From assembly GCA_035530055.1 (NCBI GenBank), contig DATKVN010000009.1, positions 1 to 37,544 of the forward strand: a stretch of 37,544 bases of DNA. Reading direction: 5' to 3'. How positions within the stretch are numbered: the stretch's first letter is position 1; the number at the start of each line of letters is the position of its first letter. Made by a program: the position numbers and the translations under genes. The notes under the pieces are model-generated. The model made no database searches, was not told the DNA's origin, and was given only the letters and a program-made list of their open reading frames with translations. The stretch comes from a bacterium (GTDB taxonomy: Bacteria; UBA6262; WVXT01). This document shows positions 1,279 to 37,141 of the stretch, one piece after another.

Positions 1279-2400
1279 TTAGGGCCTCAACTTTTCATTT
1301 GCTCTTTTCATCATCTCCAGAGCCCTCTCGTTCTCAGGATCCAACCCCAGAATCTTGTTGAACTCAAGTATTGCCTCAGGATACTTGCCCTCATTATAGT
1401 ATTCCATCCCTCTCTTAAATGCCCTCTTTATCATCACTGCCTTTGCCTCTTTGCCAAACCTGGTCACTATCCCTATCCTGTGCGTATATCCTAATTCTCC
1501 AAAATGGACAAGCGCATAGTCTATCTGGAATACGTTAACCTTTATCCCTCCTCCAAAACTTATCCCATTCCCTAAGTCCTGACCACTCTTGTATCCCACC
1601 CTCAGTGCAATTAAATCCCTCACCCAGTACTCTATCCCCAAACTTCCATAGAAATCGTTATCATTGGGAAGATTACCATCTATCGCTATGGTCAGTGGGT
1701 CTCCAAATACTTCCTTCCTTATGCCCACTCCAAACTTGAAGTTTAACGGAAGACTTCCTTCCTCTTTTTGAAACTTCACTTTGCTTCCCAGATTCTGCAA
1801 ATTTACACCAATGACAAGCTCCTCCAGTCCCTTTACCTTAAGCCATCTACCCAAACCACCAATAACACCTATATCAATACCAAATGCAGACGAGGATTCT
1901 TTCTCTAACTTCTGTTGAATGAACTTCAGGTTTATCCCTCCATATATCCCATAATAAGGTAGTTTCCTGGCATAGGATAGAACTCCTAAAAAGTCAGAGG
2001 CTCCAACCTTTTCTGTCTTTACATCGCTAGCTGTATATCCCTGAATCTTATCCATAGATAGATAGTTGATGCTTCCGGCAAATGTGCCCAGGGTGGGATG
2101 GGGGTAGGTATAGCCGAAATATTGCGAGCTTATACTTTCAAACCATAGATTGTACATAAAGGAGGCTTCCTGGCTGTCTATCCTTACTAAACCTGCCGGA
2201 TTCCAGAACACACTGGTTATATCATTGCAGATTGCTACCTGTGCCTCTCCCATTCCCACTGCCCGGGGTCCAACTCCTATCTTCAGGAAGTTTGCTCCTG
2301 TTGTTCCCGGGTCTGAGGCGTATGTGAGATTGATAAATTGAGAGGCTAACAGGAAAATAAATGTAATTAAAATGGTCTTTGGAACCTTTAATCTGTTCAT
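1279..2400 (-). CDS. PorV/UPF0164-like outer-membrane beta-barrel with C-terminal TPR
   Basis: The protein is 373 aa from the ATG at 2400, which has GGAGAG 8 nt upstream and starts a good signal peptide (MNRLKVPKTILITFIFLLA). An in-frame ATG at 2427 lacks this. The mature start has the PorV/PorQ signature: FLKIGVGPRAVGMGEAQVA followed by SVFWNPAGL. The middle is alternating beta-strand sequence (GGINLKF, GVNLQNLG, VGIRKEV, LRVGYKSG, GISFGGGIKV) typical of these barrels. The last 55 residues are a TPR-like helix pair (AFKRGMEYYNEGKYPEAILEF, then LDPENERALEMM). In Bacteroidota, PorV shuttles T9SS cargo at the outer membrane; that role here is inference. It is the first gene after a riboswitch and an 11-bp-phased promoter, and a secreted-protein gene follows. 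Confidence 0.82.
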   Translation of the reverse strand: MNRLKVPKTILITFIFLLASQFINLTYASDPGTTGANFLKIGVGPRAVGMGEAQVAICNDITSVFWNPAGLVRIDSQEASFMYNLWFESISSQYFGYTYPHPTLGTFAGSINYLSMDKIQGYTASDVKTEKVGASDFLGVLSYARKLPYYGIYGGINLKFIQQKLEKESSSAFGIDIGVIGGLGRWLKVKGLEELVIGVNLQNLGSKVKFQKEEGSLPLNFKFGVGIRKEVFGDPLTIAIDGNLPNDNDFYGSLGIEYWVRDLIALRVGYKSGQDLGNGISFGGGIKVNVFQIDYALVHFGELGYTHRIGIVTRFGKEAKAVMIKRAFKRGMEYYNEGKYPEAILEFNKILGLDPENERALEMMKRANEKLRP

Positions 2401-2415
2401 ATTTCTGACTCTCCG

Positions 2416-2481
2416 TTGGTCGAGCATTCTTCAGGGTGCCAATTGGTCAGGCATTTATCACCTCCCTTTCGGGAGGACTCC
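2416..2481. repeat. Interspersed palindromic repeat in PorV-like leader
   Basis: This contains GGTCGAGCATTCTTCAGGG, GGTCAGGCA and the hairpin CCTCCC-tttc-GGGAGG (2461-2476). The first part resembles the element at 10711-10792 and the second part recurs at 19963-20018 and 24699-24822, so this looks like a joined pair of dispersed elements. It lies between the riboswitch terminator and the start codon. Confidence 0.65.
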
Positions 2482-2488
2482 ATTCCAT

Positions 2489-2535
2489 AAAAAAGCCGGG
2501 TTACCAAAAATTTTTAATCTTCGGTAACCCGGCTA
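2489..2535 (-). terminator. Riboswitch-linked intrinsic terminator
   Basis: Read on the minus strand, AGCCGGGTTACC (2535-2524) pairs perfectly over 12 bp with GGTAACCCGGCT (2505-2494), followed by a run of T. The 5' arm is also the 3' strand of the upstream aptamer, so folding of the aptamer and of the terminator should compete. This is a standard off-switch layout. Confidence 0.8.
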
Positions 2536-2650
2536 CCCCCCATCCAGCGTTCTGGGTGTGGGGCCCGTAGTTTTGCCCCGACTTCTCAGTCGGGATCCCA
2601 AAAATTCGGGACGCCCTCCGATTACTCGGAGTTTGCCTTTGTCGGATTTT
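2522..2650 (-). ncRNA. c-di-GMP-I (GEMM-I) type riboswitch, interrupted by a hairpin insert
   Basis: On the minus strand the GEMM-I landmarks appear in order: GGCAAAC (2637-2631); stem-loop CUCCGA-GUAA-UCGGAG (2631-2616) with a GNRA loop; GCAAAACUACGGGCC; a P3-like helix; and GGUAGCCGGGUUACCG (2537-2522). The normal GGGACGCAAAG junction after the GNRA stem is replaced by GG, about 37 nt containing two hairpins (2577-2594 and 2596-2611), then GGGGCAAAA. Known GEMM-I RNAs bind c-di-GMP. Whether this one still does is uncertain because the insert sits at the ligand-proximal junction. It heads the PorV-like/surface-protein transcription unit and ends in the terminator at 2489. Confidence 0.72.
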
Positions 2651-2757
2651 TCGCCTTATGTAAATGGTAATTACAAATCAGTATACTCTCTGTTTGTAAC
2701 ATTTATATAAACGAATTGTAAAATCTTTGTCCATTTGACTTGCAATCTTCCTCTCTA

Positions 2758-2822
2758 AGTATATACCGTTGATGTTATGGATAGGTTAAGAAATTGTTAA
2801 TTTTTCGTTAATTTTTCGTTAA
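2758..2822 (-). promoter_or_regulatory. Promoter with five 11-bp-phased TTAAC boxes
   Basis: On the minus strand TTAAC occurs at 2822, 2811, 2800 and 2789, with ATAAC at 2778, each exactly 11 bp apart. A -10-like TATACT begins 10 nt after the last box (2763-2758), and there is no -35 hexamer. Direct repeats at 11 bp are typical of OmpR/PhoB-family response regulators, and the Bacillus PhoP box is TTAACA-like. The same boxes and the same 10-nt spacing occur upstream of the second PorV-like gene. Confidence 0.72.
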
Positions 2823-13098: not shown

Positions 13099-15195
13099 TT
13101 ATAGGAAGAGGATGACCAACCAGTTGTGGAATGCCAGAATCGTATTAGCAAATACTAAAGATACAATAGCCATCAACTTCAATAAGATATTTAAGGAGGG
13201 ACCCGCTGTATCCTTGAAAGGGTCTCCCACAGTATCTCCGATGACCGAAGCCTTATGCACTTCCGAGCCCTTTCCACCTAAATTGCCTTCCTCAATATAT
13301 TTTTTGGCATTGTCCCAGGCTCCACCTGCATTAGCGAGAAATATTGCCAGGGGAACTCCTGTAACAAGAGAGCCAGCCAAAAACCCACCCAGTGCTTCCA
13401 CTCCTAAAATGGTCCCTACGATGAGAGGCAAGAGGACAGCTGCAATTCCTGGAACCACCATCTCTCTCAAAGCTCCCCGAGTGGCAATATCCACACAGCG
13501 AGCCGAATCCGGCCTTGCCGTACCAGCCATAAGCCCGGGAATCTCCCTGAACTGCCTTCTCACTTCTTCCACGATTTTAAAAGCCGACCTGCCCACTGCC
13601 TGCATTGTGGCTGCAGAAAAGAGAAAAGGAACCACACCGCCGATAAACAGTCCAGCAACAACCTGTGGTTTCATTATATTTATAATAAGTTGTGAAGTCA
13701 TTGTAACTTCGTCATATACGCTCAATCCAACTGTCTGGGCAAAAGCAGTGAACAGAGCCAACGCAGTTAAAGCAGCAGAGCCAATAGCAAATCCTTTACC
13801 AATGGCTGCGGTTGTGTTGCCCACTGCATCGAGCCTTTCAGCTCGCCGCCTCACCTCAGGAGCCATTCCCGCCATTTGGGCAATGCCACAAGCATTATCA
13901 GCAATTGGTCCATAGGCATCTATAGCCACAGTCATCCCTGTGATGGATAACATCCCCACCGCCGAAAGAGCTATGCCAAAAATATTTGCAAACTTATAAG
14001 CAACAATAGTAGCCACTCCTATGGCTACTACAGGAATTGCTACACTGAACATTCCCGAGGATATTCCCTGGAGAATATTAATAGCTGGACCAGTGCGGGA
14101 TGATTCGGCTATATCTCGCACAACTTTGCCCGATGTATAATACTCCGCAGTAAATCCCACAACCATTCCCGCAGATAATCCCGAAAGAATGGCAAAGAAG
14201 ACATTGACTTTTCCATACCAGAAAGTTGCCAGGAAAAAGGCGCCAATTATGAAAAGAGAAGCGCTGGCAATCATTCCTTTACGCAGAGCTCTCTGAGGGT
14301 CTTCTCCCTCAGCGGTGCGGACGAAGAAGATTCCAATAATGGAAGAGATAATTCCCCAGGCAGGCAGAAGCAGTGCTAACATTACTCCCTTAATGTTTTG
14401 AAAAGCTACGGCAATAACAATTGCCGAAATTATTGCCCCTACATAGGATTCGAAAAGGTCTGCGCCCATACCCGTAACATCGCCAACATTGTCTCCAACA
14501 TTATCTGCAATCACTGCTGGATTACGAGGATCGTCCTCGGGAATGCCCGCTTCCACTTTGCCCACTAAATCCGCACCCATGTCGGCAGCTTTGGTATAGA
14601 TTCCACCACCAACACGAGCGAAAAGGGCTACAGATGAAGCCCCCATACTGAAACCAACGATAAGTTGGGTTGCCTCGATAATCCTATCCAGAAAGTTTTC
14701 ATAATGGAGACCGGCGTGGTGGAGAAAGATTAAGAATACAAGAGATAATCCGAATAGGCCAAGACCGGCAACACTAAGCCCCATTACTGCTCCGCCGGGA
14801 AAAGCGATCCCCAGCATTTCATTAAAGCTTTTGGTAGCTCCCTGGGCAGTACGGGCGTTCGAGCGAGTGGCAATCTGCATTCCTAAATAGCCTGCCAGAG
14901 CGGAACAGAATGCTCCTGCTACAAATGCTATTGCTGTCTTTTTAGCCACAAAAAAGTAAAGAACCACGCCCAAGGTAACCACGAAGAGAACAATCGCCGA
15001 AAACTCACGGAAAAGAAAGGCCATGGCCCCCTCGTGAATCATTTCCGATATCTCTCTCATCTTCTCTGTTCCCTGACTTTTTCTGAGAATCTTTATGGAG
15101 AGATAGACCACAAACAATAATCCAAGAAATCCTGCCCCTAAAGCACTTCCTATACCGGGTAAACCTCTGAGCGATTCAACCACTTCATCCTCCAT
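13099..15195 (-). CDS. hppA: Membrane-bound ion-translocating pyrophosphatase
   Basis: The enzyme couples pyrophosphate hydrolysis to H+ or Na+ pumping across the inner membrane. The 698-aa protein has about 16 hydrophobic segments and the family active-site motifs GGGIYTKAADMGADLVGKVEAGIPEDD, DNVGDNVGDVTGMGADLFESYVG and, near the C-terminus, GDTVGDPFKDTAGPSLN (each longer run quoted only up to its key acidic residues). GNTTAAIGKGFAIGSA has Ala where K+-independent enzymes have Lys, which points to the K+-dependent class. Whether the pumped ion is H+ or Na+ is not decided. Its start overlaps the DUF502 stop by one base (TAATG), so translation is coupled. Confidence 0.95.
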   Translation of the reverse strand: MEDEVVESLRGLPGIGSALGAGFLGLLFVVYLSIKILRKSQGTEKMREISEMIHEGAMAFLFREFSAIVLFVVTLGVVLYFFVAKKTAIAFVAGAFCSALAGYLGMQIATRSNARTAQGATKSFNEMLGIAFPGGAVMGLSVAGLGLFGLSLVFLIFLHHAGLHYENFLDRIIEATQLIVGFSMGASSVALFARVGGGIYTKAADMGADLVGKVEAGIPEDDPRNPAVIADNVGDNVGDVTGMGADLFESYVGAIISAIVIAVAFQNIKGVMLALLLPAWGIISSIIGIFFVRTAEGEDPQRALRKGMIASASLFIIGAFFLATFWYGKVNVFFAILSGLSAGMVVGFTAEYYTSGKVVRDIAESSRTGPAINILQGISSGMFSVAIPVVAIGVATIVAYKFANIFGIALSAVGMLSITGMTVAIDAYGPIADNACGIAQMAGMAPEVRRRAERLDAVGNTTAAIGKGFAIGSAALTALALFTAFAQTVGLSVYDEVTMTSQLIINIMKPQVVAGLFIGGVVPFLFSAATMQAVGRSAFKIVEEVRRQFREIPGLMAGTARPDSARCVDIATRGALREMVVPGIAAVLLPLIVGTILGVEALGGFLAGSLVTGVPLAIFLANAGGAWDNAKKYIEEGNLGGKGSEVHKASVIGDTVGDPFKDTAGPSLNILLKLMAIVSLVFANTILAFHNWLVILFL

Positions 15196-32507: not shown

Positions 32508-33728
32508 TCATTGATATCTGTTTTGAATTAACCCTGTCCCTTTATTTAACATCTCAAGAAAAGTCTCCACAACTTTCGGATCGAACTGCGTTCCACTATT
32601 TTCTCTCAACTCTTTAATTGCTCTCTCTTTAGAATATGCTTTCCTATACGGTCTTTCTGATAACATAGCATCAAAGGCATCAGCTACAGCCATTATCCTT
32701 GCTCCTATATCTATTTCCTCATCTCTGTAGTGGCTGGGATAACCTTTCCCATCATATCTTTCGTGATGCTGCTTGACCATATCAATTACTCCGTTAAGGA
32801 AAACAATCAGAGGAGCCAGTATTTCAGCGCCTTTAACCGAATGGAGCTTTATTTCTTCCCATTCTTCATCAGTTAATTTATCGGGCTTGAGAAGGATAAA
32901 GTCGTGCACTCCAATCTTACCAATATCGTGTAAATGGGAAGCCTGCCTGATAAGCTCTACCCGCTCAGGAGGGAGTTTCATCGCTTCAGCAATAGCTACA
33001 GCGTATTCAGCCACCATCTCCGAATGTCTCCTGGTATAATGGTCACGCGCATCGATAGTAGCTGCTAAGGTGGTAATGGTGCGCATATAAAGATTGCTTA
33101 AACTCTTGTAAAGTCTAACATTTTCGATAACTATAGCCACCTGAGCAGCTATCTGCTTGAGCAATCGAAAGTCTTCCTGATTAAAGATTCTTCTCGACTT
33201 TTTATTGTTTACATTGATAACTCCTATAACCTTATCCTTTATAGCCAAAGGAACACTCATTAGAGATTTATTATAATACTTCTCCTCACTTCTCTTAGCA
33301 AAGTGAGTCTCTTTCTCAATATTTTTCACCAAAATTGGCCTATTATGTTTTACTACCCAGCCCGAAATCTTATTTCCCACTTCAAGTTCTGTCTCCTTCA
33401 AAATTTTTTGTTCCAGTCCCTTAGCACATTCAACTGACAACTTGCCAGTCTTATCATTTATTAAGAGGATAGAGCATATTTTCACGTTCAGAATCGAACC
33501 CACCTTTTCCACGATTACCTTTAAAACATCCTCCATCTTCAACTTATTTGAAACATCTCTTTCTATCCTGTAGAGAAAAGATAGTGCCTTCGTCTTCTGA
33601 CTCACTTTTCTTGATAACTCTTTCCTGAGTTCTATCAGCTTACTATTGGTATTAACCAACTCCGAGGTCTTCTCTCCCAACTCTTCTCCCAGCTCTCTTA
33701 TTCTTCTGGCTAAATCTTCCTTCCCCAT
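32508..33728 (-). CDS. GAF/HD-GYP cyclic-di-GMP phosphodiesterase
   Basis: HD-GYP proteins hydrolyse c-di-GMP. The 406-aa cytosolic protein has an N-terminal coiled coil (about 5-55), a GAF sensor domain (about 65-205, with VIEKVGSILNVKICSILLIN and MSVPLAIKDKVIGVINVNN), and an HD-GYP domain. The last has HYTRRHSEMVAEYA, LHDIGKIGV, KLHSVKGAEIL, QHHERYDGKGYP and MAVADAFDAML, with all metal and GYP motifs present. I place the start at the ATG at 33728, which has GAGGAG 6 nt upstream; an upstream frame (to 33797) runs through the terminator hairpin. It is divergent from the PorV-like gene and shares a TTTAC-boxed promoter region with it. Confidence 0.92.
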   Translation of the reverse strand: MGKEDLARRIRELGEELGEKTSELVNTNSKLIELRKELSRKVSQKTKALSFLYRIERDVSNKLKMEDVLKVIVEKVGSILNVKICSILLINDKTGKLSVECAKGLEQKILKETELEVGNKISGWVVKHNRPILVKNIEKETHFAKRSEEKYYNKSLMSVPLAIKDKVIGVINVNNKKSRRIFNQEDFRLLKQIAAQVAIVIENVRLYKSLSNLYMRTITTLAATIDARDHYTRRHSEMVAEYAVAIAEAMKLPPERVELIRQASHLHDIGKIGVHDFILLKPDKLTDEEWEEIKLHSVKGAEILAPLIVFLNGVIDMVKQHHERYDGKGYPSHYRDEEIDIGARIMAVADAFDAMLSERPYRKAYSKERAIKELRENSGTQFDPKVVETFLEMLNKGTGLIQNRYQ

Positions 33729-33779
33729 TACTGACTCCTCGTAGAAACCCTCCCTCAAAAATTCCCTCACCTGAAAAAT

Positions 33780-33824
33780 AAAAAACCGAATTACCAAACC
33801 TTAATAATCTTTGATAATTCGGCT
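33780..33824 (-). terminator. Intrinsic terminator in the HD-GYP leader
   Basis: On the minus strand AGCCGAATTATC pairs with GGTAATTCGGTT (12 bp with two G-U pairs), then six T. Layout matches the riboswitch terminator at 2489-2535, including the AGCC start and GGTAA partner. It lies about 50 nt before the start codon. Confidence 0.72.
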
Positions 33825-33919: not shown

Positions 33920-33925
33920 AAAAAG

Positions 33926-33977
33926 TTTATATCCAAAATATAACATTTGTGTAAAGAAATTGTAAATTTTTTGTAAA
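33926..33977 (-). promoter_or_regulatory. HD-GYP promoter with three 11-bp-phased TTTAC boxes
   Basis: On the minus strand TTTAC occurs at 33977, 33966 and 33955, exactly 11 bp apart. A weaker GTTAT is at the next phase (33944), then a -10-like TATAAA (33931-33926) follows 8 nt later. This resembles the TTAAC arrays of the two PorV-like promoters. Confidence 0.55.
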
Positions 33978-34000: not shown

Positions 34001-34054
34001 TTAACAAAAAATTAACATTTTCTTAACCTATTCATAACATAACCCGTGTATAAT
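34001..34054 (+). promoter_or_regulatory. PorV-like promoter with four 11-bp-phased TTAAC boxes
   Basis: TTAAC at 34001, 34012 and 34023 and ATAAC at 34034 are exactly 11 bp apart. A perfect -10 TATAAT (34049-34054) starts 10 nt after the last box, the same spacing as at 2758-2822. TCTTAACCTATTCATAACAT here matches TCTTAACCTATCCATAACAT there with one difference. Confidence 0.75.
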
Positions 34055-34086
34055 ATTATTGGAACGAGAAAATGGAGACAGGTGAA

Positions 34087-35226
34087 ATGAAAAAAGAGAG
34101 ATTATTGATGGTATTGTTATTATGTTTGCTATTTGGAACCAGAGTGGCATTAGCAAAAGCAGTGACAGGAGTGGCAATTGTAAACCAGGCAATAGGGGTG
34201 AGGCAATTGGGTATGGGAGAAGTAGCCACAGGTCTATCAGATGATGCAGCAGCTATGTATTATAACCCGGCAGGTATTGCCACAGTAAGGAACATAGAAC
34301 TTAATGCCATGTATCATCAAAACATAATTGATACACGCAATGAAGCGCTAAACCTGGTTTATCCCTTGAAGGGAGGGCTACTCTTAGGTAACGAAGCAAG
34401 TATCGGCATAGGAGTACTTGCCTATCAAGGAGGAGATTTTGAGTGGATTCAGTTAAATCCAGATGAAACAATAAAGTCGAGGGAAACATTAAAAGCAGAG
34501 AGCGACTATCAGATAGGGCTATGTTACGCTCAAGAGATAGCCAGGTTTTCAGGAAATACCTATGCAGGAGTAATGGTGAAGTGGATTCAATCAACATTAG
34601 TGGAGGAATACAAAGCAGGGGCATTGGGGATAGATGTGGGAGTTTTGCATAAGGTAGGAGGGTTGGGCCTGGGAGTGGCGCTACAGAACATGGGGACAGG
34701 AATGAAGTTCATAGAGGAAGCAGATAGTCTGCCCCTTACCATAAGATTAGGAGGAAGTTATGAGAAAAAGATAGGCAGGATAGTAAAGATGGTAGTAGGG
34801 ATAGATGGAATAAAGGTACTGAAGGACGATATCAGATACAACTTAGGAGGGGAATGCTGGATAGGGGATATGTTAGGGATAAGAGGAGGGTATAAGATAA
34901 ATGATGACAACAAGGTTAGTATAGGAGCAAGTATAAGGTATAAATGGGTGCAGTTGGATTACGGGTATAGGATGATGGATGTATTGGACAATACCCACCA
35001 GGTGGCAATCACCTTACGCATGGGCTCTCCTGAGACAAGTAAAAAAGCAAAAGTGAGGCAGATGAAAAAGCATTACATAAGAGCAACGACGTATTACAAG
35101 AAAAGGATGTATAAAGAAGCGATAGTGGAGTGGGAGAAGGTATTAAAGATAGACCCGAATCATAAACAATCAAAAGAAGCGATAGAGAAAGCAAAAAAGA
35201 AAATGGAACAGACGGCAAAGAAATGA
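34087..35226 (+). CDS. PorV/UPF0164-like outer-membrane beta-barrel with C-terminal TPR (second copy)
   Basis: The 379-aa paralogue of the gene at 1279 starts MKKERLLMVLLLCLLFG with cleavage after VALA. GGAG lies 9 nt before this ATG; an ATG 15 nt upstream is also open. The PorV signature is GVRQLGMGEVATGLSDDAAA then MYYNPAGIA. Alternating beta strands follow (GLGVALQNMGTGMKF, LTIRLGGSYEKK, LGIRGGYK). A TPR-like tail (about residues 325-370: YIRATTYYKKRMYKEAIVEWEKVLKIDPNHKQ) closes it. It is 13 bp upstream of a secreted glycosidase-like gene with a FlgD/T9SS-like C-terminal domain, so the pair may act as export factor and cargo (inference). Promoter boxes as for the first copy. Confidence 0.82.
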   Translation: MKKERLLMVLLLCLLFGTRVALAKAVTGVAIVNQAIGVRQLGMGEVATGLSDDAAAMYYNPAGIATVRNIELNAMYHQNIIDTRNEALNLVYPLKGGLLLGNEASIGIGVLAYQGGDFEWIQLNPDETIKSRETLKAESDYQIGLCYAQEIARFSGNTYAGVMVKWIQSTLVEEYKAGALGIDVGVLHKVGGLGLGVALQNMGTGMKFIEEADSLPLTIRLGGSYEKKIGRIVKMVVGIDGIKVLKDDIRYNLGGECWIGDMLGIRGGYKINDDNKVSIGASIRYKWVQLDYGYRMMDVLDNTHQVAITLRMGSPETSKKAKVRQMKKHYIRATTYYKKRMYKEAIVEWEKVLKIDPNHKQSKEAIEKAKKKMEQTAKK

Positions 35227-35239
35227 TAGGAAAGAAAAG

Positions 35240-37141
35240 ATGAAAACAAAATTACACATACTCTTTATCATAGCTTTAAGCCTGCTGTGGCTGATATTGC
35301 CGCAAGTTGTGTGTCGGGGCCCAACCTATTATCTTGATGCTGCAAATGGTAATGATAGCAATATGTATGAAGTCTATAGCGTAGATGATGCTGGTAACAA
35401 GAGTGTGTCAGCGGAAATAGGGGCCTTTTCTACCGCATCAGATTCTCACAATATAACAATTGGTCCTAACAATGAATTAATAATAGGCGGAGAAAAGTTC
35501 TTTCCGATATTTGTCTGGAATCAGAGGATTTCAGGATTAAATTATCTCAAAAATTTGGGCATAAATACTATAGTAGGTTACGACGGCGGTGATGGACCTG
35601 TCATTAATTGGCTTGACGCAGGACAGGCAAGAGGTATTTATATGGTACCTCACGTTAATTACCTTGATGCAACTACAGCAGACCATCCCGCATTGTTAGC
35701 AGCGCTTATTTGTCACGAACCTGAGTTAGGATCAGCAGGCCCAAAGGAATATCCAAGTGAAATACAAGCGAGAGAAGATAATTTCAAAAGCCAATTTCCG
35801 GGAATACCAACGATTAATTTACTTACAGCATGCTTTTATGATTATTACAGATCTCGTATCTCATGGATGAACGGAGATTATTCTTGGTATGACCAGTATA
35901 TGGCACTGGGAGATATAATATCTTATGACCATTACCCCATAACAGGGTGGAATAAACCGGAAAGAATATATGAGCTTGGAGCAGCAACCAATGAGGCTTA
36001 TGTTGCTTATCTGTCTAAAAGTAAACCCGTCTGGCCAATCATTGAGGCCTCGGATCAAGACCTAAGCTGGACAGCTCCTGAAACAAGAGGTCCTTATGAT
36101 TATGAGATGAGGGCAGAAGCCTGGCTATCGATCGTGAATGGAGCAAAAGCAATTGGCTACTTTACAATAGCATTCAACCCATTTAGTTACAATAGGTTAA
36201 CTCCACAAATAGAGGCTGAGATGATCAGAACAAATTCACAGATCACTGGTTTGAAGGACATCGTCTTAGCAGAAGACCCAACAGATGTCAGTGTAAATGT
36301 CACCGCAACAAATGGTTTAACCGTTCAAACAATGGTCAAGAAATATAATAATAAGATTTACATTTTTGCTGTTGAAGGTGACAGTAGTTACGATTATACT
36401 GACAGGAAAAGCGGTGTTGCTACATTTACCGTAAACAGAATCCTCCAAGATGCTTATGTTACTGTCTATGATGAATCAAGAGCATTGCAAGCAACAGGCA
36501 ATAACTTTACAGACACATTTGACGAATTAGGAGTGCATATTTATATAACCGATTTGGGTAGCCCCGTAAATCAGGCTCCCACAGCCAACGCTGGATCGGA
36601 CCAGACGCTAATTGACGAAGACAACGATGGAGAAGAGCAGGTCACCCTTGACGGCTCAGCTTCACGAGACCCGGATGGTACAATTGTAAGCCTTATCTGG
36701 AGTGAAGGCAATTCACAGCTTGCTAATGGTATAAATCCAACGGTAACCCTATCCACTGGAGAACATTTAATTACACTAACTGTCGCCGATGATGGAGGGT
36801 TAACAGATACTGATACAGTAACCATTAAAGTGTTAAGAGAAGATAAAGAATTCGGAGAACTACCAGCAGATTGTTATAACAATCTGTTTAATCCATTAAA
36901 AGGAGAAAAAGCAATAATCGTAGTGGAATTATCAAAACAAGCTCAGGTAAGATTAGATCTTTATAATGCAAGAGGCCACAGAATAAGAGAACTCGCAAAT
37001 GAAGAAAAAGAAGCAGGGACACACAAGTACTACTGGGATGGTAGAAGTGGCAATGGCGATGTCGTTGGTTCTGGATTATATTTTGTCCATATACAGGTGG
37101 GAGACTATAAGAAGACAAAGAAGATTGTTGTGGTGAAGTGA
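35240..37141 (+). CDS. Secreted glycosidase-like protein with PKD and FlgD/T9SS-like C-terminal domain
   Basis: The 633-aa protein starts with a signal peptide (about 1-26). Residues 29-41 (YYLDAANGNDSN) look like the start of a parallel beta-helix protein. They run straight into an FN3-type end (YEVYSVDDAGNKSVSA, 44-59). A TIM-barrel-like domain (about 72-440) begins IIGGEKFFPIFVW and contains HPALLAALICHEPELG (E160 may be catalytic), IISYDHYPITGW and VWPIIEAS, glycoside-hydrolase-like but of unassigned family. Then comes a PKD domain (about 446-532, ANAGSDQTL, DGSASRDPDG). Last is a C-terminal domain (about 545-633) with VRLDLYNARGHRIREL, YYWDGRSGNG and SGLYFVHIQVG, like FlgD Ig and type IX sorting domains. 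It lies 13 bp after the PorV-like gene. Confidence 0.8.
   Translation: MKTKLHILFIIALSLLWLILPQVVCRGPTYYLDAANGNDSNMYEVYSVDDAGNKSVSAEIGAFSTASDSHNITIGPNNELIIGGEKFFPIFVWNQRISGLNYLKNLGINTIVGYDGGDGPVINWLDAGQARGIYMVPHVNYLDATTADHPALLAALICHEPELGSAGPKEYPSEIQAREDNFKSQFPGIPTINLLTACFYDYYRSRISWMNGDYSWYDQYMALGDIISYDHYPITGWNKPERIYELGAATNEAYVAYLSKSKPVWPIIEASDQDLSWTAPETRGPYDYEMRAEAWLSIVNGAKAIGYFTIAFNPFSYNRLTPQIEAEMIRTNSQITGLKDIVLAEDPTDVSVNVTATNGLTVQTMVKKYNNKIYIFAVEGDSSYDYTDRKSGVATFTVNRILQDAYVTVYDESRALQATGNNFTDTFDELGVHIYITDLGSPVNQAPTANAGSDQTLIDEDNDGEEQVTLDGSASRDPDGTIVSLIWSEGNSQLANGINPTVTLSTGEHLITLTVADDGGLTDTDTVTIKVLREDKEFGELPADCYNNLFNPLKGEKAIIVVELSKQAQVRLDLYNARGHRIRELANEEKEAGTHKYYWDGRSGNGDVVGSGLYFVHIQVGDYKKTKKIVVVK

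Follow-up and report, generated by a model that had tools for sequence, protein, structure and literature searches.

Arrays of TTWAC boxes in 11-bp steps, mostly set at a fixed distance before a -10 element, quite likely represent a PhoB-type promoter code that runs a regulon of surface and c-di-GMP genes, some of which would need both the regulator and c-di-GMP for expression. The analysis starts from the window, i.e. the whole stretch of 37,544 nt, which corresponds to the complete contig C9 of a 1.68-Mb assembly (106 contigs, 96% complete). The relevant features of the window are as follows:

1279-2427, minus strand: PorV/PorQ-family outer-membrane protein with a C-terminal TPR (NF033709, over cut-off)
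2494-2534, minus strand: intrinsic terminator, a 19-bp hairpin followed by a U run (from the fold; position taken from the fold string)
2520-2609, minus strand: c-di-GMP-I riboswitch aptamer (RF01051) in the PorV leader, downstream of both promoters
2680-2722, minus strand: tandem second promoter of the PorV gene, TTTAC/TTTAT/GTTAC at 11 bp, then 10 nt and TATACT
2758-2763, minus strand: -10 element of array 1 (TATACT), 10 nt past the last box, without a -35
2774-2822, minus strand: array 1, five boxes in exact 11-bp steps, four TTAAC (2818-2822, 2807-2811, 2796-2800, 2785-2789) and ATAAC (2774-2778)
32508-33797, minus strand: GAF-HD-GYP protein, putative c-di-GMP phosphodiesterase with intact HDIGKIG...HHERYDGKGYP, facing array 3
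33924-33977, minus strand: array 3, three TTTAC and GTTAT at 11 bp, then 10 nt and TAAACT, divergent to array 2
34001-34038, plus strand: array 2, four boxes in 11-bp steps, TTAAC (34001-34005, 34012-34016, 34023-34027) and ATAAC (34034-34038)
34049-34054, plus strand: -10 element of array 2 (TATAAT), 10 nt past the last box
34072-35226, plus strand: PorV/PorQ-family protein (UPF0164 in Pfam; NF033709, over cut-off)
35240-37141, plus strand: secreted protein with PKD and FlgD-Ig domains

The first-pass annotation had described arrays 1 and 2 as five and four boxes at exact 11-bp steps, ending with ATAAC 10 nt before the -10, lacking a -35 and lying on opposite strands, and all of this is reproduced here. 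It had missed the arrays at 2680-2722 and 33924-33977 and the riboswitch at 2520-2609, all on the minus strand. The arrays of the window are not a product of chance. Box triples at 11-bp steps are absent from 300 dinucleotide shuffles of the window, which itself contains three to four overlapping triples, and TTAAC pairs at a distance of 11 occur five times as compared to a mean of 0.12 in such shuffles (n=300). The arrays of both PorV loci are conserved in relatives among the three other genomes of the genus (G001-G003; the own genome is denoted G000). G001 and G003 keep array 1 and the tandem promoter, the latter having a weaker -10 in G001, and array 3 is kept in all three.

The code extends beyond the window. 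The search pattern TTWAC-N6-TTWAC-N6-DTWAY-N10-TAWAMT (three boxes plus fixed -10), run alongside a reversed control, matches G000 eight times exactly and three times with one mismatch. At up to two mismatches, 19 matches (register-shifted overlaps counted) face none in the control, and G001, G002, and G003 yield 16, 15, and 29 matches vs. 0, 1, and 3. Among 60 genomes scanned, the four of the genus lie clearly above control and the 56 more distant ones near control level. After merging, the G000 loci amount to approximately 14 promoters, located on C9 (four), C20, C36, C39 (three), C46, C52, C65, C69, and C78, which are probably switched on by a PhoB-like regulator. In 10 of the 12 G000 arrays that a search by boxes alone retrieved, the -10 lies at exactly 10 nt, C65 being included by taking GTAAT as its last box; the spacing counts in G001-G003 are biased, as the search for some of these loci already included the -10. 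The four-box array on C46 (1251-1304) precedes a gene for a secreted protein of no known family, and its -10 (TATATACT) is off the usual 10-nt spacing. C101 carries a further, inverted array of five boxes (13349-13397), additional to the approximately 14 promoters, immediately ahead of a complete TTGACA-N17-TAACAT promoter, and similar inverted arrays are present in G001 and G003. Since the C101 array is inverted at an ordinary -35/-10 promoter, some arrays may act differently. The first-pass annotation had proposed a genome scan for such box series, with random positions or a lack of enrichment upstream of genes speaking against its reading. The arrays proved to be intergenic, gene-facing, and more frequent than in the controls in all four genomes of the genus.

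The genes behind the arrays mostly relate to the cell surface, export, and signaling. Both PorV/PorQ proteins of the window exceed the NF033709 cut-off of 90 bits (195.9 and 127.1 bits), and neither reaches the equivalog cut-offs for PorV or PorQ of the T9SS. The genes at 34072-35226 and 35240-37141 probably form one operon, because only 13 nt separate them. Other array genes of G000 code for a Poly_export protein, an AMIN/TolC-like protein, a TPR protein, a secreted protein of 1808 residues with a weak FlgD-Ig match, an M23 peptidase together with a bactofilin, several unnamed secreted proteins (adhesin-like ones among the targets), single-domain response regulators, and a cluster in which response regulators are accompanied by a kinase and a GGDEF-like protein. 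The neighbor of the PorV gene at the contig edge (2-1201) codes for an incomplete protein that contains BACON and bacterial Ig domains. The label "Clostridia bacterium" attached to the relatives is probably wrong, as these genomes encode PorV/PorQ and TolC-like outer-membrane proteins.

A part of the arrays is combined with c-di-GMP-I riboswitches, a link that the first-pass annotation did not contain. The aptamer in the PorV leader of the window scores just above the gathering threshold of RF01051 (37.2 vs. 35 bits) and is thus weak, and the leader is conserved in relatives. The 5' strand of the terminator overlaps the 3' end of the aptamer by 15 nt (2520-2534), an overlap that predicts a c-di-GMP ON switch. 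In total, 49 c-di-GMP-I aptamers are found in the genus (13 in G000, 12 in G001, 8 in G002, and 16 in G003), and a comparison within the same order gave one aptamer each in two genomes. This riboswitch is unusually abundant in the genus. Of the 49 aptamers, 14 are immediately preceded by an array promoter of equal strand (3/13 in G000, 3/12 in G001, and 8/16 in G003), and no such pair occurs among the eight riboswitches of G002. By our own arithmetic, approximately 0.05-0.1 pairs per genome would be expected by chance, even with all sites restricted to one tenth of the genome. Paired aptamers begin 10-94 nt after the -10, often at 10-16 nt, i.e. near the predicted transcript start. Inverted arrays are situated upstream of three further aptamers, on C101 (G000), C37 (G003), and C24 (G001), the C101 aptamer being a strong one (81.5 bits, the top score elsewhere in G000). 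The majority of array promoters are devoid of a riboswitch, and nine more riboswitches of G000 have no array promoter (C7, two on C14, C34, C36, C39:2300, C77, C81, and C89). A weight matrix detected no degenerate arrays upstream of these array-less riboswitches, and a relaxed threshold revealed no riboswitch beyond the known ones in the array leaders of G000.

The first-pass annotation had suggested a common activator of the OmpR/PhoB family encoded outside the window, with PhoP-like boxes and no -35, and had advised a search for PhoB/PhoP-like regulators. The absence of a -35 and the PhoP-like box are borne out, and the activator is supported as a candidate. In the G000 assembly, only two proteins with an OmpR-type DNA-binding domain were found, RR1 and RR2, both in the signaling cluster on C52 and hence outside the window. 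RR1 ends 5 nt before an array, RR2 closes the cluster, and the kinase of this cluster has an sCache sensor domain. A third OmpR-type protein, RR-A, is encoded in G001-G003 between a gene for an RR-GGDEF-like protein and an array, which in turn precedes a response regulator gene and gyrB. In G003 (L328, 7713-9932), dnaA/dnaN-like genes and gyrB flank the RR-GGDEF-like gene, RR-A, the array, and the response regulator gene. In G000, contig C36 stops at the RR-A position, so the absence of RR-A is probably due to an assembly gap. G001 and G003 contain a fourth paralogue as well.

On sequence grounds, the class of these regulators is clear, namely OmpR/PhoB-type. The best curated model is PhoB (TIGR02154) for RR1 and RR-A and MtrA for RR2, all below cut-off; with TIGR02154, the regulators score 235.8, 228.1, and 247.3 bits vs. 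a cut-off of 296.2. The solved effector domains closest to that of RR-A are 8hml/8hig/8hih (titled OmpR-family regulators), RegX3, VicR/WalR, and PhoB; we take the first three entries to be GlnR. The recognition helices of RR1, RR2, and RR-A are nearly identical (TRTVDVHI/V..LREKL) and resemble those of GlnR and RegX3. As the three paralogues share this helix, each of them is a candidate for the cognate regulator.

From array geometry, genus-wide conservation, targets, riboswitch co-occurrence, and candidate regulators we infer the following mechanism. Each array would be an activator site within a sigma70-type promoter that lacks a -35. One or more of the three PhoB-like paralogues would bind head-to-tail on the 11-bp units (5'-TTWACNNNNNN) and hold RNA polymerase at the -10 placed 10 nt past the last box; the fixed 10-nt spacer and the missing -35 fit class II activation by an OmpR/PhoB-family response regulator. 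The promoters would drive a genus-specific surface regulon that comprises PorV/PorQ proteins, large secreted proteins, polysaccharide export, a TolC-like channel, an M23 peptidase with bactofilin, response regulators, and a c-di-GMP phosphodiesterase. For part of this regulon, the transcript would start close to a c-di-GMP-I aptamer, and full expression probably needs the phosphorylated regulator plus the right c-di-GMP level, an AND logic; in the leader of the window, c-di-GMP would switch expression on.

Three other explanations have to be considered. The arrays could be phased AT-rich tracts that cause DNA curvature or serve the alpha subunit of RNA polymerase as UP elements, with no specific regulator involved. 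The spacers are indeed A/T-rich, and 11 bp is close to the helical repeat. However, conservation falls on TTWAC with its C and not on plain A-tracts, and the box positions are high in information (41 sites). Moreover, the G003 counterpart of array 2 is longer by one unit of exactly 11 bp, which fits modular repeats, and we regard the tracts as the least probable of the alternatives. Only slightly more credible, and still very unlikely, is a regulator that represses at the arrays. The inverted C101 array beside its complete promoter would allow repression or class I activation at that site, whereas most arrays occupy the position of a class II activator, i.e. upstream of a -10 at a constant distance of 10 nt, a -35 being absent; repression does not need such phasing.

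The third alternative is a true Pho regulon, in which a PhoR/PhoB pair senses phosphate limitation and the surface genes assist the cell when it is starved of phosphate. One argument for it comes from other phyla. Public genomes were scanned with a four-box pattern of 54 nt (including N10 and the -10), and 30 first genes behind it outside the genus, a sample among the matches listed, were checked. A large share of this sample is phosphate-related, which is not to be read as a frequency, and includes genes for PstS, PstB, alkaline phosphatase, exopolyphosphatase, PhnF, and PhoB-type regulators. The box hence reads as Pho-type, and the targets in this genus are unusual. With this pattern, Pho-regulon genes are retrieved from Facklamia, Omnitrophota, and other genomes (L139, L161, L165, L181, L182, L183, L188, and L192), so the pattern may be generally suited to locating Pho-type promoters in different phyla. 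PhoB as the best curated match of RR1 and RR-A points in the same direction, but the scores stay under the curated cut-off and the sensor domain of the cluster kinase is sCache. A search for PhoU and PstS-like families found no Pst system in the genus. The single PF12849 match adjoins permease, ABC ATPase, and moaA-like genes and was rejected as PstS, since it sits in a tungstate-type cluster. No array precedes the gene of this tungstate-type binding protein or the fused Na/Pi-PhoU gene, and none of the annotated array genes is recognized as a phosphate-acquisition gene. A Pho regulon in this sense is therefore unlikely, though less so than the two explanations above. Of the first-pass reading, the common OmpR/PhoB-type activator is supported and the hint at phosphate limitation is not, given that the analysis found no PstS, an array-less Na/Pi-PhoU gene, and array genes for surface, export, and signaling functions.

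Returning to the surface and c-di-GMP regulon, a wider interpretation is put forward tentatively, at somewhat less than even chances: a Pho-box code that other phyla use for phosphate genes may have been rewired in one uncultured genus lacking Pst into a master switch for surface and attachment functions, with array plus c-di-GMP riboswitch as a repeated AND gate. If so, the two-component input signal would act at initiation and the c-di-GMP input in the leader. The target set suggests attachment or surface remodeling, and the recurring pairing of promoter type and riboswitch suggests two control layers evolving together. Surface targets here vs. phosphate targets elsewhere provide a testable case of regulon rewiring, and the regulon of an uncultured bacterium becomes readable from its DNA, with a promoter code, few candidate regulators, and a target set.

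Among the closest known systems is the Pho box of PhoB and Bacillus PhoP, in which 11-nt units are repeated directly and bound head-to-tail (PMC4415409). The unit length, the winged HTH response regulator, and the use of the same pattern on phosphate genes elsewhere agree with the arrays described here, whereas the targets (surface, export, and c-di-GMP genes), the failure to find Pst, regulators under the PhoB cut-off, and TTWAC boxes instead of the E. coli CTGTCAT differ. WalR/VicR (YycF) recognizes TGTWAH-N5-TGTWAH (PMC4168254) and controls envelope-remodeling genes (PMC9210968). Direct repeats are shared, and the targets here include an M23 peptidase gene; the longer arrays, the rigid gap to the -10, outer-membrane/PorV targets, and riboswitch leaders set the present system apart, and the regulators score far under the cut-off of the YycF model. 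The GlnR box is GTnAC-n6-GTnAC (PMC10704036), so that GlnR box, WalR box, and the 11-nt Pho unit display one shared geometry. With actinobacterial GlnR, the candidates have a nearly identical recognition helix and a similar box in common, but the annotated targets here include no nitrogen genes, the organism group is another one, and the regulators have two-component genes as neighbors. E. coli ArcA sites contain two to five direct repeats with 11-bp spacing (PMC3798270); they vary in position and orientation, in contrast to the one fixed distance to the -10 of the arrays. Finally, in C. difficile cmrRST, one operon is under the control of a c-di-GMP riboswitch and a response regulator (PMC8844915). 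There, the riboswitch is located on the regulator's own operon, while here the array-riboswitch pairs are spread across many surface genes.
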